Shown piece by piece: positions 11,477-28,588 of a DNA stretch of 32,490 nucleotides. Under the pieces are notes generated by a model, which did not search any database, had not been told where the DNA came from, and was given only the letters and a program-made list of their open reading frames with translations. This DNA comes from Pelomonas sp. KK5 (lineage in GTDB: Bacteria; Pseudomonadota; Gammaproteobacteria; Burkholderiales; Burkholderiaceae_C): positions 1-32,490 of the forward strand of contig NZ_LYVQ01000057.1 of NCBI RefSeq assembly GCF_001984095.1, read 5' to 3'. Each line of letters opens with the position of its first letter. Within the stretch, counting starts at the first letter, position 1. The position numbers and the translations under genes are program-made.

Positions 11477-11481
11477 TTGAA

Positions 11482-12570
<1,089 letters not shown>

Positions 12571-12577
12571 AAACCCG

Positions 12578-13621
12578 ATGGCCACCATCAAGGACGTCGC
12601 CCGCCTCGCGGGCGTCGGGGTCGGCACCGCCTCGCGGGCGATCTCGGGCAACGGCTCGGTCTCGGCCGATGCGCTGGCGCGCGTCAACGAGGCGGTGGCA
12701 GCGCTGAACTTCAAGCCCTCGACGACGGCGCGCGCGCTGTCCACGCGCTCCGCGGGCATGATCGGCATCTACGTGCCCGATTTCGCCGGCGACTTCTACG
12801 GCCCGATCCTGCACTGCGTGGACCGCGAGCTGCGCGGCGCCAGCCGCCACATGGTGGCGGCCAACGGCTGCGGGCCGGCCGACATCTCGATCGACGACAT
12901 GGAGGCGCACCGCCAGCAGGCGCTGGACGGCATCGAGTTCCTGATCGAGCGCCAGGTCGACGGCCTGCTGGTGATGGGCGACGCGCTGACCGACGCCGAC
13001 TGCGACGGCCTGTGGGCCCGCATGCCGCGCCTGGTGCTGCTGAACCAGACCAGCCCGTCCAACCTGCTGCACTGCTTCAGCAGCGACCATGAACTGGCCG
13101 GCCGCCTGGCCGCGCGCGCCCTGCTCTCCAAGGGCCACCGCGAGATCGCCTGCATCTCGGGCCTGCAGTACGCGCACGACAACGCCTCGCGGATGGCCGG
13201 CTTCCATGCCGAGCTGGCGCTGCATGGCGTGAAGATCCCCAAGAGCCGCCAGATGATCGGCGACTTCAGCTTCGACGGCGGCCACGCGGCGGCGAAGAAG
13301 CTGCTCAAGAAGGGCATCAACTTCAGTGCCGTCTTCTGCGCCAACGACATGATGGCGATGGCGCTGATCTCCTGCTTCGGCCATGCCGGCGTGCGCGTGC
13401 CGGAGGAGGTGTCCGTGATGGGCTTCGACGACAGCGCGCTGGCCCGCTACACGCACCCGCGCCTGACGACGATCCGCATCCCGATCCAGCGCACCACGAT
13501 CAGCGGCTGCCGCTTCCTGCTGAACCAGTGCTACGGCCTTGCCTTGCCGGTGGAGCGGGAGTTCCCGCCGGAGGTGGTGTGGCGGGAGTCGGTGGTGGAC
13601 GGGCCTTACCTCACAGCCTGA
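12578..13621 (+). CDS. LacI family transcriptional regulator of the beta-glucoside operon
   Basis: This 347-residue regulator has a helix-turn-helix at residues 3-24 ([20 protein letters not shown]) and a hinge helix around 46-56 ([10 protein letters not shown]). A periplasmic-binding-protein-like sugar domain follows, starting MIGIYVPDF and including [12 protein letters not shown] and VSVMGFDDS. It begins seven bases after the ATPase stop, with only a weak ribosome binding site, so it is probably made at a low level by read-through translation. As last gene of the operon it would repress its own transcript through the operator at 6735-6750 and release it on binding glucose or a beta-glucoside. 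Its stop overlaps the convergent chemoreceptor gene by 11 bases. Confidence 0.93.
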
Positions 13622-15158
13622 ACACCGCCACCGTCTGCGCCAGGCTCGCCGCCTGGTGCTTCAGGCTCTCCGCCGCCGCGGCGCTCTGCTCCACCAGCGC
13701 CGCGTTCTGCTGCGTCACCTGGTCGAGCTGGTTCACTGCATCGCCGATCTGGCCGATGCCGCTGCTCTGTTCGACGCTGGCGGCGCTGATCTCGCTGATC
13801 AGGTCGTTGACCCGCTTCACCTGCGAGACGATCTCGTTCATCGACTGCCCGGCCTCGTTGACCAGGCGCGAACCGGCATCCACCTTCTCCACGCTGCTGC
13901 CGATCAGCATCTTGATCTCCTTGGCGGCCTGGGCCGAGCGCTGGGCCAGACCGCGCACCTCCGAGGCCACCACCGCGAAGCCGCGGCCCTGCTCGCCGGC
14001 CCGCGCCGCCTCGACGGCCGCGTTCAGCGCCAGGATGTTGGTCTGGAAGGCGATGCCGTCGATCACGCCGATGATGTCCACGACCTTGCGGCTGCTCGCG
14101 CTGATCTCGCCCATCGTGGCCACCACCTGCTCCACCACGCGGCCGCCCTGCATCGCCGCCGACGAGGCGCTGCCCGCGAGCTGTGCCGCCTGGCGGGCGG
14201 TGTCGGCGTTCTGGTTGACGGTGGCGGTCAGCTGCTCCATCGAGGCCGCCGTTTCCTCCAGGTTGCTCGCCTGCTCCTCGGTGCGCTGGCTCAGGTCCGC
14301 ATTGCCGGTGGCGATCTCGGCCGAGCCGTGGGCGATCGAATCGGAGCTGTGGCGCACCTGCGTGACGATCTCCACCAGGCTGCCGTTCATCTTCTTCAGT
14401 GCACCAAGCAACTGGCCGGTCTCGTCCTGGCTGTCGATGGACACGTTCGAGGTCAGGTCCCCCGAGGCGACCGTCTCCGCGACGGTGACGGCCCGCGCGA
14501 TCGGGCCGGTGATCGAGCGGGTGATCACCAGCGCAAGCACCGCGCCGATCGCGATCGCCACCACAAGCAGCGTCACCACCGCCCAGCGCGTCTGCTCGAA
14601 GGCGGCCTGCGAGTCCTTGTAGGCCGCGTCGCCGCCCTGGGTCTGGAACTCCACGTCCTTGGACAGCGTATCCATCACCGCATTGAACGGCGTCAGCCCC
14701 TTGTCGTACTGCGCCTTGCCGGCGGCATCGAAGTTGGCGTCCTCGTGCTTCAGCGCCACCAGCGCGCTGACGTTGGCGAAGTAGTCCGCCTGCGCGGCCT
14801 GGATCGCCGTCTCGTACTTGCGCTCCTCGTCGGTGGCGACGGTCGCGGCATAGCGCTTCCAGGCTTCCTGGGCCTTGGCCTTCAGGTCTTCGACGCGCTT
14901 GATCTGCGGGTTGTACTTCTCGGGGTCGCCGGACATCACGAAGCGCGCCTCGGCGCGGCGGATCGAGGACATCACGCCCTGGTACTCGCCCAGCGCGCGC
15001 ATGGCCGGCAGCCAGTTGGTGGCCATGTCGGTGGTCGAGTCGTTGACCTTGCCGATGCGGTTCACGGAGAAGACTCCGAGCACCAGTGCCAGCACAAGGA
15101 CGGCAGCGAAACCCAGCAGCAGCCGGGGGCCGATCTTCAATCGGGTCAGGGCGTTCAT
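13611..15158 (-). CDS. Methyl-accepting chemotaxis protein
   Basis: This is a 515-residue transmembrane chemoreceptor. TM1 spans about residues 11-30. A periplasmic four-helix-bundle (4HB) sensor runs to about 190, TM2 is 192-213, HAMP is about 214-266, and the signalling coiled coil follows with the conserved hairpin tip [37 protein letters not shown] at about 367-402. It clusters with CheA/CheW at the pole in other bacteria. The C-terminus (TVAVFRL) lacks the NWETF-type pentapeptide that tethers CheR. Its ligand is not evident. Proximity to a sugar operon is suggestive only, since the two are convergent. GAGGAG lies nine bases before the ATG and can be masked by the leader (see 15168-15213). 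Confidence 0.95.
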
Positions 15159-15167
15159 GGCATTTGT

Positions 15168-15213
15168 CTCCTCGTGGTCCGGTCTCTGTGGATCCGGATC
15201 TCCCCGCGAGGAG
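15168..15213 (-). promoter_or_regulatory. Leader hairpin that can cover the chemoreceptor ribosome binding site
   Basis: On the minus strand the leader begins CTCCTCG (15213-15207) and ends CGAGGAG (15174-15168), a perfect 7-base inverted repeat. The second arm contains the Shine-Dalgarno sequence of the chemoreceptor gene. Between them TCCGG and CCGGA can form a nested 5-base stem, so the whole leader can fold as one two-storey hairpin. If the transcript starts upstream of 15213, translation would be restrained until the stem opens. Pairing is visible; regulation is inferred. Confidence 0.45.
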
Positions 15214-15277
15214 CCTACTGCAGGACGTGAAGATTTGATACCGGGAGAAATGGCCTGACCCCGCGCCTCATCCTGCG

Positions 15278-16528
15278 TCAGGCCCAGGGTCGCAGGCCCA
15301 TCTGCTGCTGGCCCAGCGGGCTCAGCTCATCGAGGGTGGCGCGGCCGGCGAAGCCCAGCTCGTAGTCTTCCGGCGCGAAATCCGGGCTGCTGCGCCCTTC
15401 AAGGAAGGCCGCCGCCTGGCGTTGCGCAAAGGCCTCGTTCTTGTGGCACCAGGGCGCGGCGCCGATGTAGATCACATTGCTGGGGCCGGTCCCGCCGTGC
15501 CGGTCCTCGACCGCATGGATCACGTCGCTGTGCCAGAAGATCGCATCGCCCGGCTCCATCACCGGGATCGACACGAGCCCCGCCAGCAGCGGCGCATGCC
15601 ACTGCGGCGAGGCGCCCAGCGCGCGGCCCGGCTGGGCGCCGCAGAGATCGCCCTCCGGCACGTCCGGCTGCAGCGCGCGCAGCAGCATCCACGGCGTGCT
15701 GGCGGCCACCGGCACCAGGCGCAGCGTGCCGTCGCCGGGGCCCTGGCGGCTCAGCGCGGTCCAGCCCTGGAAGGTGCGGAAGGCCGAGCAGACGGCGGGC
15801 GACGGGATCTCCTTCGTGGCGATCCGGTGCTCGGCGTCGAAGGGATCGAACGCCAGCGGGTCGCCCTCGAACACCTCGCGATAGAGCGGGCGGAAGCTCG
15901 GCTCGCACCAGCGCTCCACCGAGCCGCCGTCCGAGTGCGGGGACAGGCCCAGGCTGGCATCGCCGGGCTCGCGGCGGCGGATGCGGTCCGCGTAGTTGAA
16001 CTGTCGGTCGGGGTCGAAGAAGCGCCGGCCGTTCTTCTCGAAGGTCCACAGCCGGTTCAGCCAGGCACGGGTGGTGGCCTGGTTCGCGTGCTGGCGGGCC
16101 TCCATCTGCGGCTTCGACCAGTACAGGCTGTAGATCTGCGGCCTGCTGGAGGCGAGCGCGCTGAAGTACTTGTCGAGCCCGGCCTTGTCCTTCATCCGGT
16201 CGAGGTAGCCGACGGCGTCGATGTAACGCCCTACTTCAGCGTTCCAGGCCTCGGCCTGCGCGCGCTCGAAGACACCCCGCACGACGACGCAGCCGCGCCG
16301 CCTGATCCGTGCCTGCTGCTGCGGCGTCACCGTGCCGGCGGCCACGTCGGCGAAGGCCAGCTCGGGCACCGCCCCGCCGGCCGCCTGCTCCGCACGGATC
16401 GCGCTGACCTCGTCGTTCAGCGCTTCGCTCAGGCGCCCGAAGCGGCCGGCCAGATCGGGCACGCCGGCCCGCAACTCGCGCTGCGCCTCGGCGGTGGCGC
16501 GCGGCACATCGTTCATCCACTGCTGCAT
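15278..16528 (-). CDS. DUF1479 family protein, putative Fe(II)-dependent dioxygenase (YbiU-like)
   Basis: This 416-residue protein is close in length to E. coli YbiU and the DUF1479 family, which adopts the double-stranded beta-helix fold of Fe(II)/2-oxoglutarate dioxygenases. Candidate metal ligands are His198 and Asp200 in LSPHSDGGS and His338 in [12 protein letters not shown]. The start at 16528 has GGGAG seven bases upstream; a longer frame to 16888 runs antisense-like through the VOC gene in another phase and is ignored. It starts 28 bases after the VOC gene stop, so the two are probably co-transcribed. The substrate is unknown; an oxidative modification of a small metabolite is the family expectation. 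Confidence 0.85.
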
Positions 16529-16556
16529 GGCTTGCTCCCAGGCGTTGCGTGCTGGC

Positions 16557-16943
16557 TCAGGGCGCCTCGTGGCAGACCGCCTCGACGTTGTGGCCGTCCG
16601 GGTCCAGCACGAAGGCGCCGTAGTAGTTCGGATGGTAGTGCGGGCGCAGGCCGGGCGCACCGTTGTCGCCGCCGCCGGCGGCCAATGCGGCGCGGTGGAA
16701 GGCCTCGACCTTGGCGCGCGAATCGACGCGGAAGGCCACATGGATCGCCGGCCGGTTGGGCGTGCCGCGGCTGATCCAGAAGTCGGGCTTGGGCGGCTCG
16801 CCGAAGCCGGCCACGTCGGTGCTGCCGGTGACGGCGGCCGGGAACTCGGCCAGCAGCGCGTAGCCGATCGGCGCCAGCGCGGCGGCATAGAAGGCCTTGC
16901 TGCGCTCGAAGTCGCTGACGACGAGGCCGGTGTGGTCGATCAT
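16557..16943 (-). CDS. VOC (glyoxalase/bleomycin-resistance) family protein
   Basis: This 128-residue protein has one VOC domain built from paired beta-alpha-beta-beta-beta units. The first unit starts IDHTGLVVSDFERSKAFY, with His4 a metal-ligand candidate. The second has IHVAFRVDSRAKVEAFH and ends in YYGAFVLDPDGHNVEAVCH, the usual C-terminal Glu-bearing strand. AGGAGGG lies eight bases upstream of the ATG, a strong ribosome binding site. Members act as lyases, dioxygenases or binding proteins, so no reaction can be assigned. Its tight spacing to the DUF1479 dioxygenase suggests a shared substrate. Confidence 0.88.
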   Translation of the reverse strand: MIDHTGLVVSDFERSKAFYAAALAPIGYALLAEFPAAVTGSTDVAGFGEPPKPDFWISRGTPNRPAIHVAFRVDSRAKVEAFHRAALAAGGGDNGAPGLRPHYHPNYYGAFVLDPDGHNVEAVCHEAP

Positions 16944-17004
16944 GATCTATCCCTCCTGCGAGGCGGCCAGCATAAGCTGCCCGCCGCCCGAGGGCGAAAG
17001 CCAG

Positions 17005-17370
17005 TCAGGACTGGCGGGCGTCGACGTAGGCCCAGGCCGTCAGCCCCGAGGCCAGCGTCACCTCGGCGCGGCGATAGTCCTCGACCTCGTAGGCATCGGC
17101 GTGGGCCAGTTCGCCCGGGGTCACCTCGAGCACCGCGCCTTCGATGCGGTCCTCGGCGCTGCCGGTGTGCACGGCGATCGGATGGTGGGTCTTGCCGCTG
17201 GTGGCGACCACGGCGCTGTCGCGGATCGCCAGCTGCTCCAGCCGGTAGCCGGGCAACTGGTCCGCCTGGCCGTTCAGGCGGCGGCCGAAGGTGGCCAGCT
17301 GCACGCTTTCGAGCTGCAGCGTGCCGTAGGAGAAGAGGCGCTGCGTGGCCAGCATCGGGGAAGCGCTCAT
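17005..17370 (-). CDS. Gamma-glutamylcyclotransferase (AIG2-like) family protein
   Basis: This 121-residue protein has the family hallmark FSYGTLQ at residues 13-19, which binds the gamma-glutamyl group, and the DAYEVEDYRR segment holding the presumed catalytic Glu95. Family members cleave gamma-glutamyl amides, releasing 5-oxoproline, though many small bacterial ones are untested. The start codon overlaps the stop of the upstream sulfoxide reductase gene (ATGA at 17370-17367), so the two are translationally coupled. A second Met at codon 6 is possible. The pairing hints at a role in sulfur amino acid or glutathione turnover under oxidative stress. Confidence 0.85.
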   Translation of the reverse strand: MSASPMLATQRLFSYGTLQLESVQLATFGRRLNGQADQLPGYRLEQLAIRDSAVVATSGKTHHPIAVHTGSAEDRIEGAVLEVTPGELAHADAYEVEDYRRAEVTLASGLTAWAYVDARQS

Positions 17371-17876
17371 GGCCAGTCGGTCGCCTCGGCGAGCGCCGCC
17401 ACGGCGTCGGCGAAGCCGCGTGCATCCGCTTCGTCGAAGCGGGCCGGCAGCGGGCTGTCGAGGTCGAACACCGCACGCAGGCGGCCATCCACGACCACCG
17501 GCAGCACCAGCTCCGAGCGCGAGGCCGAGTCGCAGGCGATGTGGCCCGGGAAGGCGTGCACGTCCTCGACCCGCTGGATCTGCTGCGTGCGGGCGCAGGC
17601 GCCGCAGACGCCGCGGCTGAACGGGATGCGCACGCAGGCGACCTTGCCCTGGAACGGTCCCAGCACCAGTTCCTCGCCCTCGCGGGCCATGTAGAAACCG
17701 GCCCAGTTCAGCTGCGGCACGGCGCCGTACACCAGCGCGGAGAACTGCGCCAGGTTGGCCAGCCAGTCGCGCTCGCCGTGCAGCACGGCCTTCACCTGCG
17801 CCAGCAGCGTGGCGTAGGCCTCGTGCTTGGCCTGCGGGCTGGACATGTCCAGGGTGTCTGTCGTCTCGAAACTCAT
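17367..17876 (-). CDS. msrC: Free methionine-(R)-sulfoxide reductase (GAF domain)
   Basis: This 169-residue single-GAF-domain enzyme reduces free, not protein-bound, methionine-R-sulfoxide with thioredoxin as reductant. The three redox cysteines are Cys81 (GKVACVRIP), Cys91 (RGVCGAC) and Cys115 (GHIACDSASRSELV). Their spacing of 10 and 24 residues equals that of the E. coli enzyme as I recall it (Cys84, 94, 118). The start at 17876 is preferred; the frame is open 37 codons further up but reads antiphase through the NIPSNAP-like gene. Met11 is a possible later start. Its stop overlaps the next gene. Confidence 0.92.
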   Translation of the reverse strand: MSFETTDTLDMSSPQAKHEAYATLLAQVKAVLHGERDWLANLAQFSALVYGAVPQLNWAGFYMAREGEELVLGPFQGKVACVRIPFSRGVCGACARTQQIQRVEDVHAFPGHIACDSASRSELVLPVVVDGRLRAVFDLDSPLPARFDEADARGFADAVAALAEATDWP

Positions 17877-17929
17877 CGTGTGGCCTGATCTACCGGGACA
17901 GGCATTCTCGCCGGATCGGGTTCCGCGCC

Positions 17930-18277
17930 TCAGAGCGGCAGGCCGTTGCTCGCCCGCAAGTCCTCGACAGCCGCCGCCGACATCCACAGCAGCGTGTTGA
18001 GGTAGTCCTCCAGGCAGGCCACCAGCGGCTCGCGCGGTCCCTCGCGCCAGGCGGCCGACGAGTAGAAGGCGTCCTGCTGGGCCACCATCTGCTCGCGGCT
18101 GTCGAAGGCGCGGATCAGGTAGAAGCTCTCGTGCTCATGGTCCGAGCGGCCGAAGGCCACCACGTCCATGCCGCTGGATCGCACCAGCGGCAGGGCCAGG
18201 CGGAAGGCCTCGATGAAGCGGTCGGCGCTGCCGGGCTTGAGCTTGTAGCTGCGGATCTCGACGAACTTGCGGGCCAT
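17930..18277 (-). CDS. NIPSNAP family protein
   Basis: This 115-residue protein is a predicted dimeric alpha/beta ferredoxin-like barrel of the NIPSNAP family. It begins VEIRSYKLKPGSADRFIEAF, the usual first strand and helix, and later has SFYLIRAFDSREQMVAQQDAFYSSAAWREGP, the characteristic second strand and helix with paired Trp/Gly. No signal peptide is present. Its biochemical role is unknown. Met codons at 18283 and 18277 are both possible; 18277 gives the family-like MARKFVEIRSY start. It begins 18 bases after the lipoprotein stop and is probably on that transcript. Confidence 0.82.
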   Translation of the reverse strand: MARKFVEIRSYKLKPGSADRFIEAFRLALPLVRSSGMDVVAFGRSDHEHESFYLIRAFDSREQMVAQQDAFYSSAAWREGPREPLVACLEDYLNTLLWMSAAAVEDLRASNGLPL

Positions 18278-18295
18278 GAGCACCCCCGAGACGGA

Positions 18296-18805
18296 CTAGC
18301 GCGAAGCCTCGGCCACGCAGCCTTCCTTGCCGCCTGCGCACGCCGCGAAACTGCCCTTCTCGAAGAACACCCGCGCGCGGTCGCTCTCGGCCTGCGTGGG
18401 CTTGCTCATGCGCCACTCGTCCTGCTCCTTCATCTTGTAGCGGATGAAGCCGGCGTCCGGATCGAACTGGTAGAACGGATAGGTGTCGCGGAAGCCACCG
18501 ATCACCAGGGCCGGCGCGAAGAGCAGGATGCTGGTGGCCATGGTCCCGCCGTTCACATGCAGCGGCAACAGGCCGAACATCGTCTGCCCGCCGGCGCTTG
18601 TGGCCTTGAACAGGTACTGGCCGGTCGCCTTGGACGCCAGCGGCAGTTGCTGCGGCAGCTCCGCATTGCTGGCCATGCCGCCGCTGAGCGACAGCTTGGT
18701 GCCCGGCGCCGCGGCGTCAAGGCGGGACACCGTCGAGCAAGCCTGCAAGGCCAGCAGTGCCAGCGCAGCGATTCCGCTGCGCCATGCCAATTGATGCGTC
18801 TTCAT
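18296..18805 (-). CDS. Uncharacterised lipoprotein
   Basis: This 169-residue protein carries a lipoprotein signal: a basic start, a hydrophobic core ALALLALQ and the lipobox LQAC with Cys22 as lipidation site. Residues +2 and +3 are Ser and Thr, which favours sorting to the outer membrane. I recognise no domain. The middle (TMATSILLFAPALVIGGFRDTYPFYQF) is hydrophobic and could be a membrane or interface segment. The C-terminus has two cysteines (FAACAGGKEGC) that might form a disulfide. AGGA sits about ten bases before the chosen ATG; a longer start at 18847 would overlap the receptor gene. It follows the TonB receptor by 28 bases, so it may be an accessory to that system. Confidence 0.8.
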   Translation of the reverse strand: MKTHQLAWRSGIAALALLALQACSTVSRLDAAAPGTKLSLSGGMASNAELPQQLPLASKATGQYLFKATSAGGQTMFGLLPLHVNGGTMATSILLFAPALVIGGFRDTYPFYQFDPDAGFIRYKMKEQDEWRMSKPTQAESDRARVFFEKGSFAACAGGKEGCVAEASR

Positions 18806-18833
18806 CTGTTGTTGTCCTATCCCTGGGCGATGC

Positions 18834-21332
18834 TCACATCTTCGCACTGAACTCGATCGCCACCGAGCGCGGCGCCGTCACGTTGGCGGTGCGCGAGCCG
18901 ACGGCCGAACCCAGCGGGCTGACGTAGGCCACGTACTGCTTGTCGGTCAGGTTGTTGATCACCGCGGCCACGCCCCACTTCTTCTGCGGTGCATCCCAAC
19001 CCACGCGCAGGTCGAAGCGCTGGGTCGGGCTGCCGACGCGGAAGGCCGGGACGCTGCCGCAGGTGTACTTGTCGCTGGTCTCGGCGTTGCAGCGGGCCGC
19101 GCCGGAGTAGGCCCAGTTCAGCGTGGCGCTGCCCTCGCCGCCCAGCATGCCGTAGCGGGCGTTCACGCCCAGCGTGGCCGAGACGCGCGGCGTGCCGACC
19201 GGCTGGCCGTCCATGGTGATCGTCGTGGCCGCGTCCTTGGCATAGGCGTAGTGCTTGTAGGTCTGGTTGATCAGCTCGGTGGCGCCGGACAGGCGCCAGT
19301 TCGGGTTGATCTGCCAGTAGCCTTCCAGGTCGGCGCCGTTGGCCTTCTGGTCGGACACGTTGACGACATAGGTCAGGATGCCCGAGGAGCTCTTGCTGGT
19401 GCCGATCGATTGCAGGTTGTTGAAGTCGTAGTGGAACAGCGAGGCGGTGTAGAACAGGCCCGCGTCCTGGATGCTGCCCTTGATGCCCATCTCGTAGTTG
19501 GTGATGGTCTCGGGGCTGAAGGTGCTGACGCCTTCCTTGTAGATCGCGTTGAAGCCGCCGGCCTGGTAGCCGCGCGTCACCGAAGCGAACAGCATCGTGT
19601 CCTTGTTCAGCTTGTGGTCGATCACCAGGCGCGGGCTGGTGTTGTTCCACGAGGCGCTGCTGCGCACCACGGAGTTCGTGGCCTGCGGGCTGTTGAAGTT
19701 GATGTTGCTGGTCATCAGCGCGTAGAGGTCGTCGCCGAGGTTGGGCGACAGGCCCGCGGCCACCAGCGTGCCCTTCAGCTGCGCCAGCGACATGCCCAGC
19801 TGCGCGGCCACGGCCGTCATCGTGGCGTCGCTGTTGACGCCGGTGAAGAAGCCGAAGCGACCCAGCGCGCCCAGCACCGCGTCCAGCTCGGGCGCCACGC
19901 GCGTCGGGTTGTACCAGGTGAAGCTCTTGCTGTCGTGGGTGAAGCGCACGCCGCCGGTGAGGTTGGTGTCCTTCGTCAGCTTCCAGATCACGTCGCCATA
20001 GGCCGCCACCGCCTTGTTGACGCCGGTGTTGTACATGGACTCGGTCCAGGGCAGGCCCGAGACATTGATCGCCGGGATGCCGCCCAGCGCCGCCAACTGG
20101 TTGGTGATGCCGAAGGGCGTCAGCAGCCCGCCGCTGGCGTTGCCGGTGACCAGGTCGACGGTGGCGGTGTTGGAGTACAGCGCGGTCTGCTGCTTCGCGT
20201 TCTCGTGGAAGGCGCTGACGCCGGCCACCCAGTCAAGCTTGTCGCTGCTGCCGTTGAGGCGGAACTCCTGCTGCCAGCTGCGGTTCTTCTCGAAGTTGCC
20301 GGTGGACAGCGAGGTCAGGAACACGCCGTTGCCGTCGTTGTCCTGCACGTTCTGGGCGGTGAAGCCGCGGTAGGCGGTCGTGCTGGTGAAGGTGGCGAAA
20401 TCGAGGTCGTGGGTCAGCCGCAGCGTGACGCCATCGAACTTGCGCGCTTCCTTCGCATCGGGGTAGTTGTTGGTGAAGGTCTTGCGGATCGGGTTGAGCC
20501 AGGTGCTCGGGTCTTCCGGGAAGGGGTTGGTGGCGAGCTTGGTGTCCGAGGGCAGCGCGATGATGGCGCGCGGCTTCTGGCTCAGCTGCTCGTGCTCCCA
20601 GGTCAGCAGCGCCGTCGTGTCGCCGCCGGTCCACTTGAGCGCGGCGCGGGTGCCCCAGCCGTCGTCGCCGCCCCACTTGCTGCCGTCGTAGAGGTTGGTC
20701 TGCCAGCCGTCCTTGTGCTCGCGCACGGCGGAGAAGCGGAAGGCGGTGCTGTCGTTGATCGCCGCGTTGCCCAGCACCTCGGCATGGTGCTGGCCCTGGT
20801 TGCCCAGGCGCAGCAGCACGCTGGTCTCGCTCTGGCGGCCCGGCTCGTTGCTGATGATGGAGATCGCGCCACCGGCGGCATTGCGGCCGAACAGCGTGCC
20901 CTGCGGGCCCTTGAGCACCTCCACCCGCTTGACGTCGTTGAAGTTCAGCAGCGCGCCGCCGGTCTTGCCGGCATAGACGCCGTTCAGGTAGATGCCCACC
21001 GGCGCGTCGGTGCCGATGCCGAAGTCGCCGCTCCCGAGGCCGCGCATCTTGTACTCGGGCTGGGTCGGCTGCGAGGCCTCCACGCTGAGGCCCGGCACCA
21101 GGCCGTCGAGCCCGGCCATGCTGGTGGCGCCCACCGCCTTGATCGTGTCCGCGCCCAGCACGCTCATCGTGATCGGCACCTCCTGCAGCTGCTGCAGCCG
21201 GCTCTGGCCGGTGACCTGCACGACGCCGAGGTTCTGCACCGGCGCATCGCCGCTCTTGGCTGCATCCTGCGCGAAGGCGGGCGCCAGGGCGGCCGCGGCG
21301 GCCATGGCGATCAGGGTCTGGCTTGCTTTCAT
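18834..21332 (-). CDS. TonB-dependent outer-membrane receptor
   Basis: This 832-residue outer-membrane receptor has a signal peptide cleaved near AFA|QDA (residue 21) and a TonB-box-like VVQVTGQ at about 37-43. The plug domain includes EVPITMSVLGADTI, MRGLGSGDF, VGIYLNGVYAG and KRVEVLKGPQGTLFGRNAAGGAISI, followed by a beta-barrel of about 600 residues. This plug type is common among Sphingomonas and Caulobacter receptors for organic ligands as well as iron chelates, so the cargo cannot be read off. The C-terminus is IEFSAKM; the final Met is unusual because barrel proteins normally end in Phe or another aromatic residue. GAGGAG lies upstream of the ATG. It follows the diheme cytochrome gene by 45 bases. 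Confidence 0.95.
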   Translation of the reverse strand: MKASQTLIAMAAAAALAPAFAQDAAKSGDAPVQNLGVVQVTGQSRLQQLQEVPITMSVLGADTIKAVGATSMAGLDGLVPGLSVEASQPTQPEYKMRGLGSGDFGIGTDAPVGIYLNGVYAGKTGGALLNFNDVKRVEVLKGPQGTLFGRNAAGGAISIISNEPGRQSETSVLLRLGNQGQHHAEVLGNAAINDSTAFRFSAVREHKDGWQTNLYDGSKWGGDDGWGTRAALKWTGGDTTALLTWEHEQLSQKPRAIIALPSDTKLATNPFPEDPSTWLNPIRKTFTNNYPDAKEARKFDGVTLRLTHDLDFATFTSTTAYRGFTAQNVQDNDGNGVFLTSLSTGNFEKNRSWQQEFRLNGSSDKLDWVAGVSAFHENAKQQTALYSNTATVDLVTGNASGGLLTPFGITNQLAALGGIPAINVSGLPWTESMYNTGVNKAVAAYGDVIWKLTKDTNLTGGVRFTHDSKSFTWYNPTRVAPELDAVLGALGRFGFFTGVNSDATMTAVAAQLGMSLAQLKGTLVAAGLSPNLGDDLYALMTSNINFNSPQATNSVVRSSASWNNTSPRLVIDHKLNKDTMLFASVTRGYQAGGFNAIYKEGVSTFSPETITNYEMGIKGSIQDAGLFYTASLFHYDFNNLQSIGTSKSSSGILTYVVNVSDQKANGADLEGYWQINPNWRLSGATELINQTYKHYAYAKDAATTITMDGQPVGTPRVSATLGVNARYGMLGGEGSATLNWAYSGAARCNAETSDKYTCGSVPAFRVGSPTQRFDLRVGWDAPQKKWGVAAVINNLTDKQYVAYVSPLGSAVGSRTANVTAPRSVAIEFSAKM

Positions 21333-21377
21333 GCGCGCTTGCTCCTCTTTGCTGGTTTTGCTTGCTGTTGTTCGGGG

Positions 21378-22559
21378 TCAGGTCTTGTCCGTCGGCACGC
21401 ACTGCCCCGGCATGGCCTTGATCCAGTCGCGGATCAGCTTCAGGCCTTCCTCGTGGACGGTGCTGCGGCCCAGCTCGGGCATCATGATCCCGCCCTCGGT
21501 GGACGAGAGGCGGAAGGGCATGATCGACGCGTCCGGCTGGCCCGGCACGATGCCGAAGCCGCGGTCGCCGGTGCCCTTGCCCGCGGCCACCGGCGGCTTG
21601 CACAGGCCCAGCACGCGGTTGGGCGGCAGGAAGGGCTCGAGGTTCAGCCCGGTGTTGTTGGCCGCGCCGACCGGGTTGTGGCAGTGGGCGCAGTTGATGT
21701 CCAGATACGCGCGGGCGCGCGCCTCCAGCGGCAGGGCCGGGTCGCGCCAGTCGGCGTTCTTCGGGATCGTGGCGGCCTCGGCGGGCAGGCCCGTCAGGAA
21801 GCCGGCCTTCACCAGGTGCTCCAGCTGGTTCTCGGTGGCGCCGCCGGCATAGGTGAAGGGCCGGTTCAGGTGGCGCGCCTTCAGGCCGATCGGCTGCAGT
21901 TCCTTGCCCTTGATCTTCGCCACATGGCAGCTGGCGCACTGGTTGGTGTTGGGCACCACGTAGGTGAACGAGTGGCTGGCGCCGCTCTTCTCGTCCTTCA
22001 GCGTCAGCGCGGCCTCGTCGCCGGTGCGGGACAGCACGGCCTCGGTCTGCTCGGCGTTCCACACATAGGGCAGCGCGACCCAGCCTTCCGTGCGATGCAC
22101 CAGCACGCGGGTCTCGATCAGGCGCACGCGGGACAGGTCCAGCGTGCGGCCGTCCAGCAGGTCGGCGTTGCTGCTGCTCGTTGCGGTCTGCAGCAGCGCG
22201 CCGTCCGCCTTCGGGTAGTAGAAGGTCTTGGTGATCACCGTGCCGACCGGCAGCTCGAAAGCAGCCTCCGGCGCGTACTTGCCCGGTGGCGTGCCGGCCG
22301 GCATCCAGATCGTGCGCAGCTTGTGCGCGTAGTCGCTGAACAGCGGGGTGTTGAGCTCGTAGGGCTGCACGCCCTCGTTGAGCTCCACGCGCAGCGCGCC
22401 GGTCCTGAACTGGTGCCAGTCGCTGAGCCTGGCGGGCTGGCCCTCGGGGATGAAGGCCGCGGGGGCGTTGGTGTTCTTGCAGGCGGTGAGCGAGGCGGCC
22501 AGGGCGGCGCCGAGCACCAGCGCGCCAGCGGCGCGCCAGAGGGTGACTACGTTGTACAT
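21378..22559 (-). CDS. Diheme c-type cytochrome lipoprotein (SO2930/HNE_0200 family)
   Basis: This 393-residue protein has a lipoprotein signal with lipobox LTAC (Cys27) and two heme c attachment motifs, CASCH in NTNQCASCHVAKIKG and CAHCH in INCAHCHNPVG. It should be lipid-anchored in the periplasm with two hemes. The N-terminal half contains conserved blocks such as YELNTPLFSDYAHKLRTIWMP and PVGTVITKTFYYP. These match my recollection of the SO2930/HNE_0200 family (TIGR03806), whose genes normally sit next to the TIGR03805 beta-helix genes. That partner is 19 bases upstream here. The reaction is unknown; heme suggests electron transfer or a peroxidase-like oxidation of a ligand. Confidence 0.9.
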   Translation of the reverse strand: MYNVVTLWRAAGALVLGAALAASLTACKNTNAPAAFIPEGQPARLSDWHQFRTGALRVELNEGVQPYELNTPLFSDYAHKLRTIWMPAGTPPGKYAPEAAFELPVGTVITKTFYYPKADGALLQTATSSSNADLLDGRTLDLSRVRLIETRVLVHRTEGWVALPYVWNAEQTEAVLSRTGDEAALTLKDEKSGASHSFTYVVPNTNQCASCHVAKIKGKELQPIGLKARHLNRPFTYAGGATENQLEHLVKAGFLTGLPAEAATIPKNADWRDPALPLEARARAYLDINCAHCHNPVGAANNTGLNLEPFLPPNRVLGLCKPPVAAGKGTGDRGFGIVPGQPDASIMPFRLSSTEGGIMMPELGRSTVHEEGLKLIRDWIKAMPGQCVPTDKT

Positions 22560-22578
22560 CGGGATCTTGTCTCGGAAA

Positions 22579-23835
22579 TCAGGCGCTGCGGCCCTTCAGT
22601 TCGACGGCCGGGAGCCGCGGCAGTTCGCAGTCGTGCGTCTGGGTGTCGACCTTGGGCGACTTGTACTTGTTCGGGCCGTCGGCGTTGAGGACCTCGGTCT
22701 TGCCGTTCTTCACACAGATGCGCTCCTCGGCGACGCCGGCGCGCTTCTCGTCCACGTAGCCGTCCCACAGCACGTCGGGGAAGCGGCCGTTGATGCCGAA
22801 CATCATCGTCTTCAGCGTCTTCAGGTCCAGGCCGTCAGGCGAGTCGCCACCGCCGCTGAAGCGGTTGTCCAGCACATAGATGGCGCGCGGGTACGGGTCG
22901 TAATCCGGCTCGGTGCCGCCCTGGGTGAAGTAGCCGGTCGAGTAGTAGCTCGACACGATGATGTTGGCCGTCTGGTTGTCGGCGATGTCGTTGTCGAAGA
23001 TCTCGACCTTGGAGTTGCTGTTGATGACAACACCCGACCCCGCCGGCACGCTGGCCACCGCCGTGCCCTTGGCGCCGAAGTTGCCGAGGTTGTTCTTGAC
23101 CGCCTTGTTCTTGTAGACCCGCGTGCCGTAGCCGTGCTGGGTCAGGTTGGGCATGTTGAACACGAGGATGCCGCCGGTGTTGCCGGTGGCCACGTTCTCG
23201 TACACGTCCGCATTGATCGTGTTCTCGATCTCGATGCCGGCCACGTTCTGCTCGGCATGGCAGCGGCGCACGATCACGTCGCGGCTCTGGCCCACATAGA
23301 TGCCGGCGTCGGCCGCGCCCCAGGCCTCGGAGTCCTCGATCAGCACGTTCTTCGTCTTGACCGGATAGATGCCGTAAGGGCCGTTGCTGGTCTTGGGGCC
23401 GCCGGTCCAGCGCACGCGCACGTTGCGCACGGTGATGTTCTCGCCGTCGTTGATCTTGACGCCGTCGCCCTTGCTGTCCTCGATGGTCAAGCCTTCCAGC
23501 GTGAAGTCGCTGGCGTAGACGATCAGGCCTTCGGGGCCGGAGAGCTGGTCCTTGAACGAGACGATGGTCTTGTCCTTGCCGGCGCCGCGGAGGGTGACGC
23601 CGTTGGCGCGCAGCGAGAGCCCGCGGTCGAAGTGGTAGCGGCCGGCCGGGATCTCCACCACCGAGCCGGGCTTGGCGTCGAGCAGCGCTTCCTGGATCTT
23701 CTTCTGCAGTTCGCCGTCGACCTTCAGGTCACCGGCGATGCCGCCCTCGGCGGATGCCGGGGCCGCCTCCTGCTTCGAGCAGCCGGCGGCCAGCGCCAAT
23801 GCCGCAGCCACGGCCAACACCGTCTTGATTCCCAT
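22579..23835 (-). CDS. Right-handed parallel beta-helix lipoprotein
   Basis: This 418-residue protein has a lipoprotein signal with lipobox AAGC (Cys19). It continues with a NosD/pectate-lyase-like right-handed parallel beta-helix seen as recurring short strands (GVTLRGAGKDKTIVSF, ITVRNVRV, VLIEDSEAWGAADAGIYVGQSRDVIVRRC, VAGIEIENTINADVYENVATGNTGGILVFN, VEIFDNDIADN). It matches the family I recall as TIGR03805, found as a gene pair with the diheme cytochrome family directly downstream. Beta-helices bind or cleave polysaccharides or, in NosD, assist copper-site assembly; no lyase catalytic residues can be assigned. It is the first gene of the system and is preceded by an inverted repeat at 23854-23865. 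Confidence 0.88.
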   Translation of the reverse strand: MGIKTVLAVAAALALAAGCSKQEAAPASAEGGIAGDLKVDGELQKKIQEALLDAKPGSVVEIPAGRYHFDRGLSLRANGVTLRGAGKDKTIVSFKDQLSGPEGLIVYASDFTLEGLTIEDSKGDGVKINDGENITVRNVRVRWTGGPKTSNGPYGIYPVKTKNVLIEDSEAWGAADAGIYVGQSRDVIVRRCHAEQNVAGIEIENTINADVYENVATGNTGGILVFNMPNLTQHGYGTRVYKNKAVKNNLGNFGAKGTAVASVPAGSGVVINSNSKVEIFDNDIADNQTANIIVSSYYSTGYFTQGGTEPDYDPYPRAIYVLDNRFSGGGDSPDGLDLKTLKTMMFGINGRFPDVLWDGYVDEKRAGVAEERICVKNGKTEVLNADGPNKYKSPKVDTQTHDCELPRLPAVELKGRSA

Positions 23836-23853: not shown

Positions 23854-23865
23854 ATAACTTGTTAT
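23854..23865. promoter_or_regulatory. Inverted repeat, candidate operator of the beta-helix/cytochrome/TonB operon
   Basis: ATAACTTGTTAT has 5-base inverted arms (ATAAC/GTTAT) around TT and lies 19 bases before the first start codon of the operon. It stands out as AT-rich in a GC-rich genome. The size suits a GntR- or MarR-type dimer, but no regulator gene lies beside it. I see no certain -35/-10 pair in the 118-base gap at 23836-23953. Confidence 0.35.
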
Positions 23866-25282: not shown

Positions 25283-26362
25283 ATGGCCAGCGTCACGATC
25301 CGGCAGGTGCGCAAGAGCTTCGGCACGACGCCGGTCCTGCACGGCGTGGACGTGGACATCCCGGCCGGCTCCTTCACCGTGCTGGTCGGCCCCTCGGGCT
25401 GCGGCAAGTCCACGCTGCTGCGCATGATCGCCGGCCTGGAGCAGATCGACGGCGGCGAGATCCGCATCGGCGAGCGCGTCGTCAACGATCTGCCGCCGAA
25501 GGAACGGGACATCGCGATGGTGTTCCAGAACTACGCGCTCTACCCGCACATGACGGTGCGCGACAACATGGCCTTCGCGCTGATGCTGGCCAAGCTGCCG
25601 CGCGCCGAGGTTGACGCCAAGGTGGCCCGCGCGGCCGAGATCCTCGCGCTCGACGCGCTGCTGGAGCGCTACCCGCGCCAGCTCTCCGGCGGCCAGCGCC
25701 AGCGGGTGGCGATGGGCCGGGCGATCGTGCGCGACCCGCAGGTCTTCCTGTTCGACGAGCCGCTGTCCAACCTGGACGCCAAGCTGCGCGTGGCGATGCG
25801 CAGCGAGATCAAGGAGTTGCACCAGCGCCTGGCCACCACCTCCGTCTACGTGACCCACGACCAGATCGAGGCGATGACGATGGGCGACCGCATCGTCGTG
25901 ATGCGCGACGGCCGGGTCGAGCAGGCGGGCCGGCCGCTGGCGCTCTACGACCAGCCTGCCAACCAGTTCGTGGCCGGCTTCATCGGCTCGCCGGCGATGA
26001 ACTTCCTGCCCGGCACGCTGCGGCATGCGGGCGGCGCGGCGCGGGTGGAACTGGCCGACGGCACGCAACTCGATGCGCCGCTGGGCGCCGGTGGCAGCGA
26101 CGGCCAGCCGGTCGTCTACGGCACGCGGCCCGAGCACCTGAGCCTGGTGGGCAGCGGCGGCATCGCGGCGCGCGTCGCGGTGCTGGAGCCCACCGGCATG
26201 GACACCTTCGTCGCCTGCCGCCACCACCAGGGCACCGAACTCTGCGCGGTGTTCCGCGAGCGCCACGAGTTCGCGCCCGGCACGACCATCCACCTGCAGC
26301 CCGACCTGCAGCGCGCCCATCTGTTCGACGCCGGCACCGGCCGGCGCCTTTCGATCGCCTGA
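25283..26362 (+). CDS. Sugar ABC transporter ATPase (UgpC/MalK family), second system
   Basis: This 359-residue ATPase has Walker A GPSGCGKST at 36-44, Gln82, LSGGQ at 134-138, Walker B VFLFDE at 154-159 and His192. It continues into a regulatory C-terminal domain with YGTRPEHL. It shares the exact motif positions of the ATPase at 11482 but differs through the rest, so the two are paralogues rather than a recent duplication. It opens the operon of a second importer and lies 31 bases before the binding-protein gene. The 84 bases upstream separate it from the divergent flavoprotein and hold its promoter; no operator is evident. Confidence 0.95.
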   Translation: MASVTIRQVRKSFGTTPVLHGVDVDIPAGSFTVLVGPSGCGKSTLLRMIAGLEQIDGGEIRIGERVVNDLPPKERDIAMVFQNYALYPHMTVRDNMAFALMLAKLPRAEVDAKVARAAEILALDALLERYPRQLSGGQRQRVAMGRAIVRDPQVFLFDEPLSNLDAKLRVAMRSEIKELHQRLATTSVYVTHDQIEAMTMGDRIVVMRDGRVEQAGRPLALYDQPANQFVAGFIGSPAMNFLPGTLRHAGGAARVELADGTQLDAPLGAGGSDGQPVVYGTRPEHLSLVGSGGIAARVAVLEPTGMDTFVACRHHQGTELCAVFRERHEFAPGTTIHLQPDLQRAHLFDAGTGRRLSIA

Positions 26363-26393
26363 GTCCCATCACAACGACAGCAGGAGACACGCC

Positions 26394-27692
26394 ATGAGCG
26401 ACCGCAGAACGATCCTGAAGGGCATGGCCGCCGCAGGCCTGATTGGTGGTGCGCCCTTTGCGCAGGCGCAGACGATGAGCTTCAAACCCGAGAAGGGCGC
26501 CAAGCTGCGCGTGCTGCGCTGGAGCCGCTTCGTGCAGGGCGACATCGACGCCTACATGGTCAACGTCAAGAAGTTCATCGACGCCACCGGCGTCGAGGTG
26601 CGGGTGGACAACGAGGGCTGGGAGGACGTGCGGCCCAAGGCCGCGGTGGCGGCCAATACCGGCGCCGGGCCGGACATCATCCTGTCCACCAACGACGACG
26701 CCAACCTGTATCCGGACAAGCTGCTGGACGTCACCGACCTGGCCGAATACCTCGGCAAGAAGTACGGCGGCTGGTACCCGGCCGGCCAGGCCTTCATGCG
26801 GCCGGACGGCAAGAAGTGGCTGGGCCTGCCGCTGGGCGCCACCGGTTCGCTGCTCGTCTACCGCGAAAGCCACGTCAAGGCAGCCGGCTTCGACGGCATT
26901 CCGAAGGACACCGACGGCTTCCTCAAGCTCTGCCGCGCACTGAAGGACAAGGGCACGCCGCCCGGCATGGCGCTGGGCAACGCCACCGGCGACAGCACCT
27001 GGTGCAACTGGCTCATCTGGGCCTTCGGCGGCAAGCTGGTGGACAAGACGAACAAGGTCGTCATCGACAGCCCCGAGACTTTGCGCGCGCTGGAGTACGC
27101 GAAGGAGCTCTACGCCACCTTCATCCCCGGCACGCTGTCCTGGCTGGACCCGAACAACAACAAGGCCTTCCTGGACGGCCAGATCTCGCTGACCAACAAC
27201 GGCATCTCGATCTACTACGCGGCCAAGAACTCGGCCGACCCGAAGATCAAGGAGATCGCGGCGGACATCAACCACTCGGTGTTCCCCGTGGGGCCGGTGG
27301 GCGTGCCGACCGAGTCGCACCTGTTCTTCAACCAGATGGTGATGAAGTACACCAAGTACCCGAACGCGGCCAAGGAGTTCCTGCGCTTCATGATGGAGAA
27401 GGAGCAGTACGACGCCTGGCTGATGGGCGCCGGCGGCTACGTCGCGCAGCCGCTGAAGGCCTACGAGGCGAACCCGGTGTGGACGATCGACCCGAAGCAC
27501 CTGCCCTACCGCGACTCGCTGAAGAACCTGCGGCCGGCCGGGTACGAGGGCCGGCTCGGCTATGCCTCGGCCGGCGCTGCGGCGGACTTCATCATCGCCA
27601 ATATGGTGGCCGAGGCCGCCAGTGGCTCAAAGACACCCAAGGAAGCCGCCGAGCGCGCCCAGAAGCGCGCCGAGCGCTACTACAAGGTGTGA
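26394..27692 (+). CDS. Extracellular solute-binding protein family 1, probably Tat-exported
   Basis: This 432-residue periplasmic sugar-binding protein has an N-terminus with twin arginines in the Tat-like motif DRRTILK (residues 3-9), then a moderately hydrophobic core and AQA|Q cleavage. Tat rather than Sec export is therefore likely. The fold landmarks are GPDIILSTNDDANLYPDKLLDV, LPLGATGSLLVYRESHVKAAGFD and WLDPNNNKAFLDGQISLTNNG, typical of family 1 sugar binders. AGGAGA lies upstream of the ATG. The ligand is unknown, as no catabolic enzyme is linked to the operon. Its stop overlaps the GTG start of the first permease. Confidence 0.93.
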   Translation: MSDRRTILKGMAAAGLIGGAPFAQAQTMSFKPEKGAKLRVLRWSRFVQGDIDAYMVNVKKFIDATGVEVRVDNEGWEDVRPKAAVAANTGAGPDIILSTNDDANLYPDKLLDVTDLAEYLGKKYGGWYPAGQAFMRPDGKKWLGLPLGATGSLLVYRESHVKAAGFDGIPKDTDGFLKLCRALKDKGTPPGMALGNATGDSTWCNWLIWAFGGKLVDKTNKVVIDSPETLRALEYAKELYATFIPGTLSWLDPNNNKAFLDGQISLTNNGISIYYAAKNSADPKIKEIAADINHSVFPVGPVGVPTESHLFFNQMVMKYTKYPNAAKEFLRFMMEKEQYDAWLMGAGGYVAQPLKAYEANPVWTIDPKHLPYRDSLKNLRPAGYEGRLGYASAGAAADFIIANMVAEAASGSKTPKEAAERAQKRAERYYKV

Positions 27693-28588
27693 AGACGACA
27701 CTCGGCAACTCGCGCAACGCCCTCGGCCTGCTGTTCCTCGCGCCGGCAGCGCTGCTGCTGCTGGTCTTCCTCAGCTACCCGCTGGGCCTGGGCACCTGGC
27801 TCGGCTTCACCGATGCCAAGGTGGGCCGGCCCGGCGTGTGGGTCGGGCTGGAGAACTACGAGTTCCTGTGGGGCGACGAGGTCACGCGGCTGGCGCTGTT
27901 CAACACGCTGGTCTACACGGTCGTCGCCAGCGTCTTCAAGTTCGGGCTGGGCCTGTGGCTGGCGCTGCTGCTGAACCGCAACATCCGGTTGAAGACCTTC
28001 TTCCGCGCCATCGTGCTGCTGCCCTACATCGTGCCCACGGCGCTATCGGCGCTGGCCTTCTGGTGGATCTACGACGCGCAGTTCTCGATCGTCAGCTGGG
28101 CGCTGGTGAAGCTGGGCCTGATCGAGCGCTATATCGACTTCCTCGGCTCGCCGTGGAATGCCCGCATCGCCGTGATCATCGCCAACGTGTGGCGCGGCGT
28201 GCCCTTCGTCGCGATCACGCTGCTGGCCGGGCTGCAGACGATCTCGCCGTCCTACTACGAGGCCTCGGCCATCGACGGCGCCACCCGCTGGCAGCAGTTC
28301 CGCCACGTCACGCTGCCGCTGCTGACGCCGATCATCGCGGTGGTGATGACCTTCTCGGTGCTGTTCACCTTCACCGACTTCCAGCTGATCTACGTCATCA
28401 CCCGCGGCGGCCCGCTGAACGCCACGCAGCTGATGGCCACGCTGTCCTTCCAGCGCGCCATCCCCGGCGGTGCCCTGGGCGAAGGCGCCGCCATCGCACT
28501 GGCGATGCTGCCCTTCCTGCTGGCCTGCGTGATGTTCTCCTACTTCGGCCTGCAGCGCCGCAAGTGGCAGCAGGGCGGAGGCGACTGA
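27689..28588 (+). CDS. Sugar ABC transporter permease (MalF/UgpA-like), second system, GTG start
   Basis: This 299-residue membrane subunit starts at GTG 27689, which overlaps the binding-protein stop in a GTGA (27689-27692). No in-frame ATG exists before the first membrane helix (ALGLLFLAPAALLLLVFLSYPLG), so GTG is the only sensible start. Six transmembrane helices are expected. The EAA loop reads YEASAIDGATRWQQFRHVTLPLL, and FTFTDFQLIYVITRGGPLNAT is the conserved MalF-side segment. The next gene begins directly after its stop codon. Confidence 0.92.
   Translation: MKTTLGNSRNALGLLFLAPAALLLLVFLSYPLGLGTWLGFTDAKVGRPGVWVGLENYEFLWGDEVTRLALFNTLVYTVVASVFKFGLGLWLALLLNRNIRLKTFFRAIVLLPYIVPTALSALAFWWIYDAQFSIVSWALVKLGLIERYIDFLGSPWNARIAVIIANVWRGVPFVAITLLAGLQTISPSYYEASAIDGATRWQQFRHVTLPLLTPIIAVVMTFSVLFTFTDFQLIYVITRGGPLNATQLMATLSFQRAIPGGALGEGAAIALAMLPFLLACVMFSYFGLQRRKWQQGGGD

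Follow-up and report, generated by a model that had tools for sequence, protein, structure and literature searches.

The stretch of DNA analysed here (the window) comprises 32,490 nucleotides, positions 1 to 32,490 of contig NZ_LYVQ01000057.1 of Pelomonas sp. KK5, a member of the Burkholderiales. It carries four consecutive minus-strand genes, encoding a parallel beta-helix lipoprotein, a diheme c-type cytochrome lipoprotein, a TonB-dependent receptor and an orphan lipoprotein (Table 1). The frame list confirms the arrangement described in an initial annotation, which had taken all four for one envelope system: the genes run in one direction and are separated by gaps of 19, 45 and 28 bases. 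Since the run continues into a further minus-strand frame (NIPSNAP-like, 18283-17930), which starts 12 bases past the orphan lipoprotein, spacing alone cannot delimit a set of four. The comparisons presented below indicate that the beta-helix protein, the cytochrome and the receptor very probably form one three-gene unit.

Table 1. Features of the locus in window coordinates (pLDDT, predicted local distance difference test; Z, structural comparison score; aa, amino acids).
Feature	Position	Strand	Evidence
Parallel beta-helix lipoprotein, TIGR03805, 418 aa	22579..23835	-	Profile match, conservation, model pLDDT 91.6, AlgE4 Z 32.9
Beta-helix lipobox Cys, residue 19	23779-23781	-	Invariant 57/57
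Beta-helix domain	22759-23697	-	
Diheme c-type cytochrome lipoprotein, TIGR03806 (SO2930 family), 393 aa	21378..22559	-	Profile, model pLDDT 88.2
Cytochrome lipobox Cys27	22479-22481	-	Invariant 57/57
P460/c'-beta-like part, residues 33-259, with heme site 1 (CASCH) at 21924-21938	21783..22463	-	Structural and profile comparison
Arg82 codon, aligned with a P460 column holding Arg in many proteins and His in others	22314..22316	-	Two alignments
Lys111 codon, column of the P460 heme-cross-linking lysine	22227..22229	-	Three alignments
Glu149-Thr150-Arg151 codons, on the strand that carries the distal carboxylate (Glu96) in P460	22107..22115	-	
Heme site 2 (CAHCH), residues 290-294	21678..21692	-	Motif
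Met360, likely second axial ligand of heme 2	21480-21482	-	Invariant; axial role predicted
TonB-dependent receptor, 832 aa	18834..21332	-	NCBIfam/Pfam profiles, receptor tree
169-aa orphan lipoprotein, adjoining the system and not judged a member	18296..18805	-	No family match

The window proteins were scanned against NCBIfam (E values up to 0.001) and Pfam (E up to 0.01), and their relatives were followed in 299 genomes sampled from the phylum, in a family sample of 250 genomes (249 besides the window's own) and in 80 named loci, the top-ranking 80 among 578 related ones, a choice biased towards the window's kin. Individual loci and genomes bear our own L and G numbers. In NCBIfam the beta-helix protein scored 413.5 bits against TIGR03805 (cut-off 141.5) and the cytochrome 370.5 bits against TIGR03806 (cut-off 313.3). 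TIGR03806 was matched in 31 genomes of the phylum sample, over its cut-off in 25 with the window's genome included. Each of the two families exceeded its cut-off in 12 genomes of the family sample (common to 11), and window-type pairs, defined by more than 400 bits against TIGR03805, occurred in 7 of the 250.

Adjacency was counted by tblastn; in 16 loci the cytochrome frame had escaped the gene caller. Two loci with weak TIGR03806 matches (L140 and L141) gave no match to the cytochrome query and were excluded from all adjacency counts. In all 80 named loci the beta-helix gene immediately preceded the cytochrome gene, and the pair was adjacent or fused in all 24 of the other over-cut-off loci of the phylum sample. 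A profile scan found both domains on one protein in L112, L134, L135 and L185, the cytochrome part of the last three falling just below or below its cut-off. Complete adjacency together with these fusions marks the pair as a true unit, in line with the recurrent TIGR03805/TIGR03806 pair that the initial annotation had named. Lipid anchoring of both proteins, likewise proposed there, is borne out: a simple lipobox pattern was present in 79/80 beta-helix and 70/80 cytochrome proteins of the named loci, and the columns of C19 and C27 were each invariant in the 57 proteins aligned. Passages found in the open-licence literature name a function for neither family; for SO_2930, a cytochrome of Shewanella oneidensis, one passage (PMC4837345) gives a predicted location in the outer membrane or outside the cell.

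In three further loci (L137, L138 and L184) a glucose/sorbosone dehydrogenase domain (PF07995) is fused to the cytochrome domain, which there scores below its cut-off. These large proteins carry extra domains, namely discoidin and ThuA domains in L138, a dockerin in L184 and InlB-type repeats in L137. Remote cytochrome relatives in family genomes (L186-L191) keep the same lysine and the same ETR motif as the window protein and have other neighbours; the gene ahead of the one in L186 reads as catalase-peroxidase-like. The labels catalase-peroxidase, ABC (ATP-binding cassette) transporter and LysR are read throughout from unscanned translations.

The receptor carries the plug (PF07715, 68.0 bits) and barrel (PF00593, 112.2 bits) domains of its class, both above the Pfam cut-offs, and scored 131 bits against the TonB siderophore receptor family TIGR01783, below the cut-off of 223.5. 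A window-like receptor was found within 600 bases downstream of the pair in 41/80 named, 4/24 phylum-sample and 5/19 family-sample loci. Among the seven family genomes with a window-type pair, the window's own included, it was directly downstream in six and 7 kb off in the seventh. The 41 receptor-linked loci are recorded as Burkholderiales, Rhodanobacteraceae and Lysobacteraceae, plus two metagenome-assembled genomes of Gammaproteobacteria and one Vitreoscilla. Pairs without a receptor occurred in Pseudomonas, Maricaulis and Microbulbifer loci and in four of five Rugamonas/Pseudoduganella/Duganella loci. The association of receptor and pair put forward in the initial annotation thus holds in the window's lineage and fails phylum-wide, where the pair is mostly found without a receptor; the receptor is a lineage-specific partner of the pair.

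The 169-residue orphan lipoprotein, also counted into the system at first, does not follow the other three genes. It matched no family in NCBIfam or Pfam at the thresholds given above. Relatives were present in 2 of the 249 other family genomes, and the better one (L192, 32 percent identity) lies away from any pair, among a LysR-like regulator and transporter-like frames read from gene calls, with no match to the cytochrome query nearby; the weaker one (G535) reached E 5e-4. At E 1e-6 none of the 128 other survey loci, a set without L192, contained a relative. The third-position G+C content of the orphan frame (listed as 18296-18847) was 0.85, versus 0.94-0.97 in the other three. The protein was rejected as a fourth member on the strength of its having two relatives and of the position of the better one; it is a local neighbour and is left out of the system.

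Structural models were built from 57 of the 81 sequences (80 named loci plus the window). The beta-helix model came closest to the mannuronan C5-epimerases AlgE4 (Z 32.9) and AlgE6 (Z 32.8), followed by an alginate epimerase/lyase, the RbmB lyase and polygalacturonases and, lower, by NosD (Z 26.8). The beta-helix fold of C5-epimerases and lyases is common to many enzymes. A profile search of PDB sequences with the beta-helix protein brought up nothing clearly related; its best match, at E 0.023, was a fructotransferase. Many polar and aromatic residues, including D124, K127, Y154, Y157, D176, Y180, E202 and E204, were invariant in all 57 aligned proteins; 23 positions that were re-tallied came from this invariant list, and their invariance is not an independent result. 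No histidine occupies an invariant or near-invariant column of the 57 proteins, and the window's own histidines were kept in at most 33 percent. With such invariant residues and no conserved histidine, a carbohydrate-binding or catalytic groove fits better than a copper site. A passage of PMC3584217 lists Bcam1339, a TIGR03805 protein, in an exopolysaccharide cluster of Burkholderia cenocepacia, which fits the carbohydrate reading of the beta-helix.

The cytochrome contains two CxxCH motifs, CASCH at residue 208 and CAHCH at residue 290, and was modelled by AlphaFold2 from 57 sequences (pLDDT 88.2). When candidates from Foldseek were re-compared structurally, the top 15 were all P460/c'-beta cytochromes, matching residues ~33-259 with Z 7.2 to 5.2 (next, 3.4). 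As a Z of about 7 is possibly due to chance, support for this kinship was sought in the sequences. A P460 profile, built from 22 proteins that were retrieved from 143 genomes of the class, matched the 57-row cytochrome profile with E 3.7e-6 (probability 87, ~20 percent identity over the aligned stretch). Compared with 55 profiles, of which 53 were decoys, it placed the cytochrome family at ranks 1 and 2 (44.8 versus 21.3 for the best decoy), and the family came first again when the heme motif was removed (31.7 versus 20.7). A profile of 10 remote members alone, sugar-dehydrogenase fusions included, scored 44.8 over 107 columns up to the heme motif. The P460 search with HMMER, run on a target set that held most TIGR03806 proteins twice, returned 214 matches, 15 of them other proteins (best of those, E 0.43). 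The P460 family PF16694 itself matched 40/57 family members at E up to 10, at best with 6.1e-5. Heme domain 1 of the cytochrome is probably kin of cytochrome P460/c'-beta.

Several results weigh against this kinship. Foldseek with the cytochrome model gave nothing below E 0.12 in the PDB, and fold matches with Z below 8 can, according to the tool's own note, arise by chance. Neither phmmer nor profile searches of PDB sequences with the cytochrome retrieved a P460. The P460 profile matched a 16-row profile of N-terminal cytochrome regions with a probability of only 25, and mid-range and remote subsets compared without the heme motif reached 27.8-30.9 against the motif-less P460 profile. The HMMER search without the motif had a best E of 0.025, and 17 of its 101 matches were other proteins. 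The six most remote members gave no match to the P460 hidden Markov model at E up to 10, and the window cytochrome itself gave none to PF16694 at the same threshold, for which reason we call it P460-like kin and not a PF16694 member.

The link between P460 and the TIGR03806 family appears to be new within the open-licence literature searched: the words 'diheme' and 'fusion' are absent from the text of a 2025 review of P460 and c'-beta, and 'cytochrome P460' was not found together with 'beta-helix'. The window's own genome also carries a cytochrome P460 gene above the Pfam cut-off (PF16694, E 4.1e-39) at another place (L218, G000:C43:15137-15508).

Conservation in the heme pocket was tallied in 122 of 129 domains, leaving aside the window and L173-L178 (the receptors of L178 and L032 are identical, probably one genome present twice). 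Lys111 was kept in all 122, remote fusions included, in a column that we place partly by what we take to be the Nitrosomonas europaea P460 sequence. Arg82, which on our reading of that sequence presumably corresponds to Arg44, was kept in 121/122; its column match was lost in the alignment of remote members. Of the ETR motif, E149 and R151 were each kept in 121 and T150 in all 122 sequences. Passages of PMC11928373 identify the heme-cross-linking lysine as Lys70 in N. europaea and give Met or Phe at this position in the structurally known c'-beta proteins, so that Lys111 favours P460 over c'-beta. Whether Lys111 in fact cross-links heme 1 is nearly balanced, with a slight leaning to the negative. 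Met360 was kept in all 122 sequences, and heme 2 (CAHCH, Met360) looks, from its sequence, like an electron-transfer heme.

A second line of evidence came from receptors that have no pair beside them. Twelve other family genomes encode a receptor of the window's type (bit score at least 470) without an adjacent pair, G305 among them having a remoter pair elsewhere. A 69-row tree, computed by a quick maximum-likelihood method and with long branches flagged among its outer rows, placed these 12 receptors in one clade (Shimodaira-Hasegawa-like approximate likelihood ratio test, SH-aLRT, 98) nested among pair-linked receptors and grouped receptors by gene context, with 3 changes versus 17.7 in shuffles. 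Close to 11 of the 12 lay genes for a flavin adenine dinucleotide (FAD)-linked lactone-oxidase-like protein and a pyridoxal phosphate (PLP) protein with an alanine-racemase N-terminal domain, the twelfth locus being cut by a contig end. One scanned flavoprotein was of the sugar-lactone-oxidase type (TIGR01679, 461.8 bits versus 292.25; PF04030). Both the flavoprotein and the PLP protein have N-termini that look twin-arginine-like by eye, and their export is judged on that alone. A small cytochrome c gene was present in 10/12 of the loci, and a TetR-type gene adjoined the receptor in 10/12, with a relative (55-57 percent identity) beside the pair in L174 and L175. We read this as one receptor type and its regulator being served by two interchangeable periplasmic redox modules. 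The set itself, conserved in L201 and L203-L212, consists of the TonB receptor, the FAD lactone-oxidase-like protein and the PLP protein, usually with the small cytochrome c and TetR genes; no paper was found in a literature search that combined three terms for it.

We tentatively propose that the beta-helix protein, the cytochrome and the receptor form one unit in the cell envelope, which captures a carbohydrate-like ligand, oxidises it and imports it, a reading that, taken as a whole, falls somewhat short of probable. The beta-helix protein, shaped like mannuronan C5-epimerases and polysaccharide lyases, would bind or trim the ligand; the P460-like heme 1 would be the oxidising site; heme 2, of the His/Met type, would hand the electrons to a periplasmic cytochrome c; and the receptor would import the ligand or its product. 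Catalysis at heme 1, the lysine cross-link, the chemical class of the ligand and the direction of electron flow are what we infer here. The carbohydrate-like nature of the ligand, which we rate just under evenly balanced, is suggested by the AlgE4-like beta-helix, the sugar-lactone-oxidase-type flavoprotein and the glycoside hydrolase family 2 (GH2) and xylulokinase-like genes near two window-type receptors (L214 and L046). A redox role of the cytochrome is suggested by the fusion of the same domain to PF07995, and the idea that the cytochrome oxidises or reduces the ligand, voiced in the initial annotation, gains weight from the P460-like heme domain. LaoA-type alcohol oxidation, considered as a model, was dropped after a literature search in which nothing was found for it.

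Other observations count against this proposal. The column of the distal carboxylate (Glu96 or Asp102) of hydroxylamine-oxidising P460 holds Arg151 here, with E149 standing two residues earlier in the alignments, and with Arg and not Glu in this column the chemistry of P460 may not apply to the family. The pair is able to dispense with the receptor, which was not beside it in 39/80 named loci (two of them cut short there) and 20/24 phylum-sample loci. The neighbouring genes suggest several different substrates: in 23/80 named loci the receptor is followed by an aldehyde dehydrogenase gene (one scanned), and kinase, aldolase and aminotransferase genes occur in L046. An AraC-type regulator lay at most 2.5 kb upstream in 28/80 named loci (one scanned), and no AraC or TetR regulator of these families was present in the searched stretch of the window. 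The window locus likewise has none of the aldehyde dehydrogenase neighbours of its relatives. In L046 (Dyella flava, 10035-19065) the pair is followed by an epimerase-like gene, an opposite-strand TetR gene and genes for a xylulokinase-like kinase, a class II aldolase and an aminotransferase; a receptor of the window's type lies two unscanned frames beyond the last of these.

Four other explanations were weighed. The cytochrome might instead handle a gas or a nitrogen-oxygen compound (nitric oxide, hydroxylamine); the beta-helix protein would keep it at the outer membrane, and the receptor would be a passenger in some lineages. The P460-like fold with its lysine speaks for this, as do the 20/24 phylum-sample pairs without a receptor and the hydroxylamine oxidation by P460 enzymes and proposed gas binding by c'-beta described in passages of PMC11928373. 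We nevertheless consider it unlikely, given the fusions with a sugar dehydrogenase domain, the replacement of the pair by the lactone-oxidase-like flavoprotein set beside the same receptor type and the arginine in the carboxylate column.

Alternatively, the pair could be a plain electron-transfer and scaffold unit, in which a structural beta-helix supports a cytochrome whose two hemes relay electrons from a dehydrogenase encoded elsewhere. In the sugar dehydrogenase fusions the cytochrome domain does have a genuine dehydrogenase as its neighbour, and a flavoprotein gene (TIGR03862, 25195-23954), in the same direction and without an export signal by eye, stands ahead of the pair in the window, as a similar gene does in the family genome locus L173. 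Against such a relay, no dehydrogenase was found as a constant neighbour among the neighbour clusters (aldehyde dehydrogenases and short-chain dehydrogenase/reductase-like proteins recur in part), the lysine K111 kept in 122/122 sequences is not obviously needed by a relay heme, and many polar and aromatic residues of the beta-helix are invariant in 57/57 proteins. This explanation, too, seems to us improbable.

Uptake of a metal or metallophore, in which copper or chelated iron would be handled by a NosD-like beta-helix and the metal reduced for import by the cytochrome, is very unlikely. It draws on NosD being among the structural matches, on the broad Pfam NosD model PF05048, which the beta-helix protein passes (43.1 bits versus 23.6), and on the siderophore receptors among the weak relatives of the receptor. 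The beta-helix protein, however, lacks conserved histidines and scores 43 bits against the NosD family TIGR04247, whose cut-off of 300 it does not reach, and copper handling by a NosD-like beta-helix was rejected on these two grounds; the copper link first suggested through NosD is further weakened by the higher Z of AlgE4. The AraC/TetR regulators and catabolic neighbours of the relatives also argue against metal uptake. No Fur-like box lies ahead of the pair (10 of 19 positions matched, versus 9.9 on average and at most 14 in shuffles of that stretch) or of the receptor (9 of 19), and Fur-controlled iron uptake was rejected. Finally, chance clustering of four envelope genes is extremely improbable: it is refuted for three of them by the counts (pair in 80/80; receptor downstream in 41/80 across Burkholderiales, Rhodanobacteraceae and Lysobacteraceae; receptor tree grouped by context) and holds for the orphan lipoprotein, which is not a conserved neighbour.

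More speculatively, the SO2930 family and its remote relatives could be widespread two-heme P460 enzymes, in which an active heme cross-linked to a lysine is wired within the chain to a His/Met relay and which have sugar-binding or sugar-oxidising modules as gene partners or fused domains; we hold this to be rather doubtful. If it were true, P460 heme chemistry would reach beyond the nitrogen cycle and serve to oxidise organic ligands at the cell surface, in some lineages together with a TonB receptor dedicated to the task, and a class of heme enzymes known for hydroxylamine oxidation would come to include many surface proteins of proteobacteria. The P460-like heme with its invariant lysine gives a catalogued pair, whose family names carry no function, a concrete and testable chemistry. 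A route to the ligand is offered by the FAD lactone-oxidase set that accompanies this type of receptor.

The surroundings of the locus were also inspected. Between 17800 and 24200 no promoter-like site was found on either strand and no terminator-like site on the coding (minus) strand; the plus strand had five terminator-like sites, as many as shuffled sequence (mean 4.6). A perfect dyad, ATAAC-AA-GTTAT, lies at 23854-23865, ~20-30 bases before the beta-helix start. As a shared operator it was rejected: it occurs once in the window and stands before the gene in 0/13 relatives examined. Past the flavoprotein gene, plus-strand frames at 25283-29458 read, from translations alone and unscanned, as the ATPase, binding protein and permeases of an ABC transporter of the carbohydrate type. 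In the same gene run as the pair, a long Gig2-like protein (PF07350, 426 bits) is encoded at 15278-16888 on the minus strand; its listed frame overlaps a glyoxalase-type gene and probably begins upstream of the true start.

Compared with known systems, the locus resembles the catalogued TIGR03805/TIGR03806 pair in that both proteins exceed the curated cut-offs and are encoded side by side; it differs in the added receptor and in a first heme domain read as P460-like, the family names giving no function. With AlgE4/AlgE6, the alginate epimerase/lyase and RbmB the beta-helix protein has a right-handed beta-helix in common (Z 32.9 to 28.3, ~290 residues), whereas identity in the structural alignments is at most 24 percent, these proteins are absent from the results of the PDB profile search and the window protein is lipid-anchored. 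The cytochrome resembles P460/c'-beta (PF16694) in a suggestive fold match, the order of strands followed by CxxCH and an invariant lysine in the cross-link column, and departs from it in having two hemes in one lipoprotein, an arginine aligned with the distal carboxylate column and ~20 percent identity. The PF07995 domain we take to be a six-bladed propeller. If so, the sugar-dehydrogenase fusions share the domain order of hydrazine synthase, a likeness of architecture alone. According to a passage of PMC12758564, the alpha subunit of that enzyme has a six-bladed propeller, an active heme domain and a second heme domain; its Pfam domain occurred in 3/150 genomes. The FAD lactone-oxidase and PLP set, lastly, shares with the window the receptor clade and a related TetR regulator and differs from it in its redox genes.

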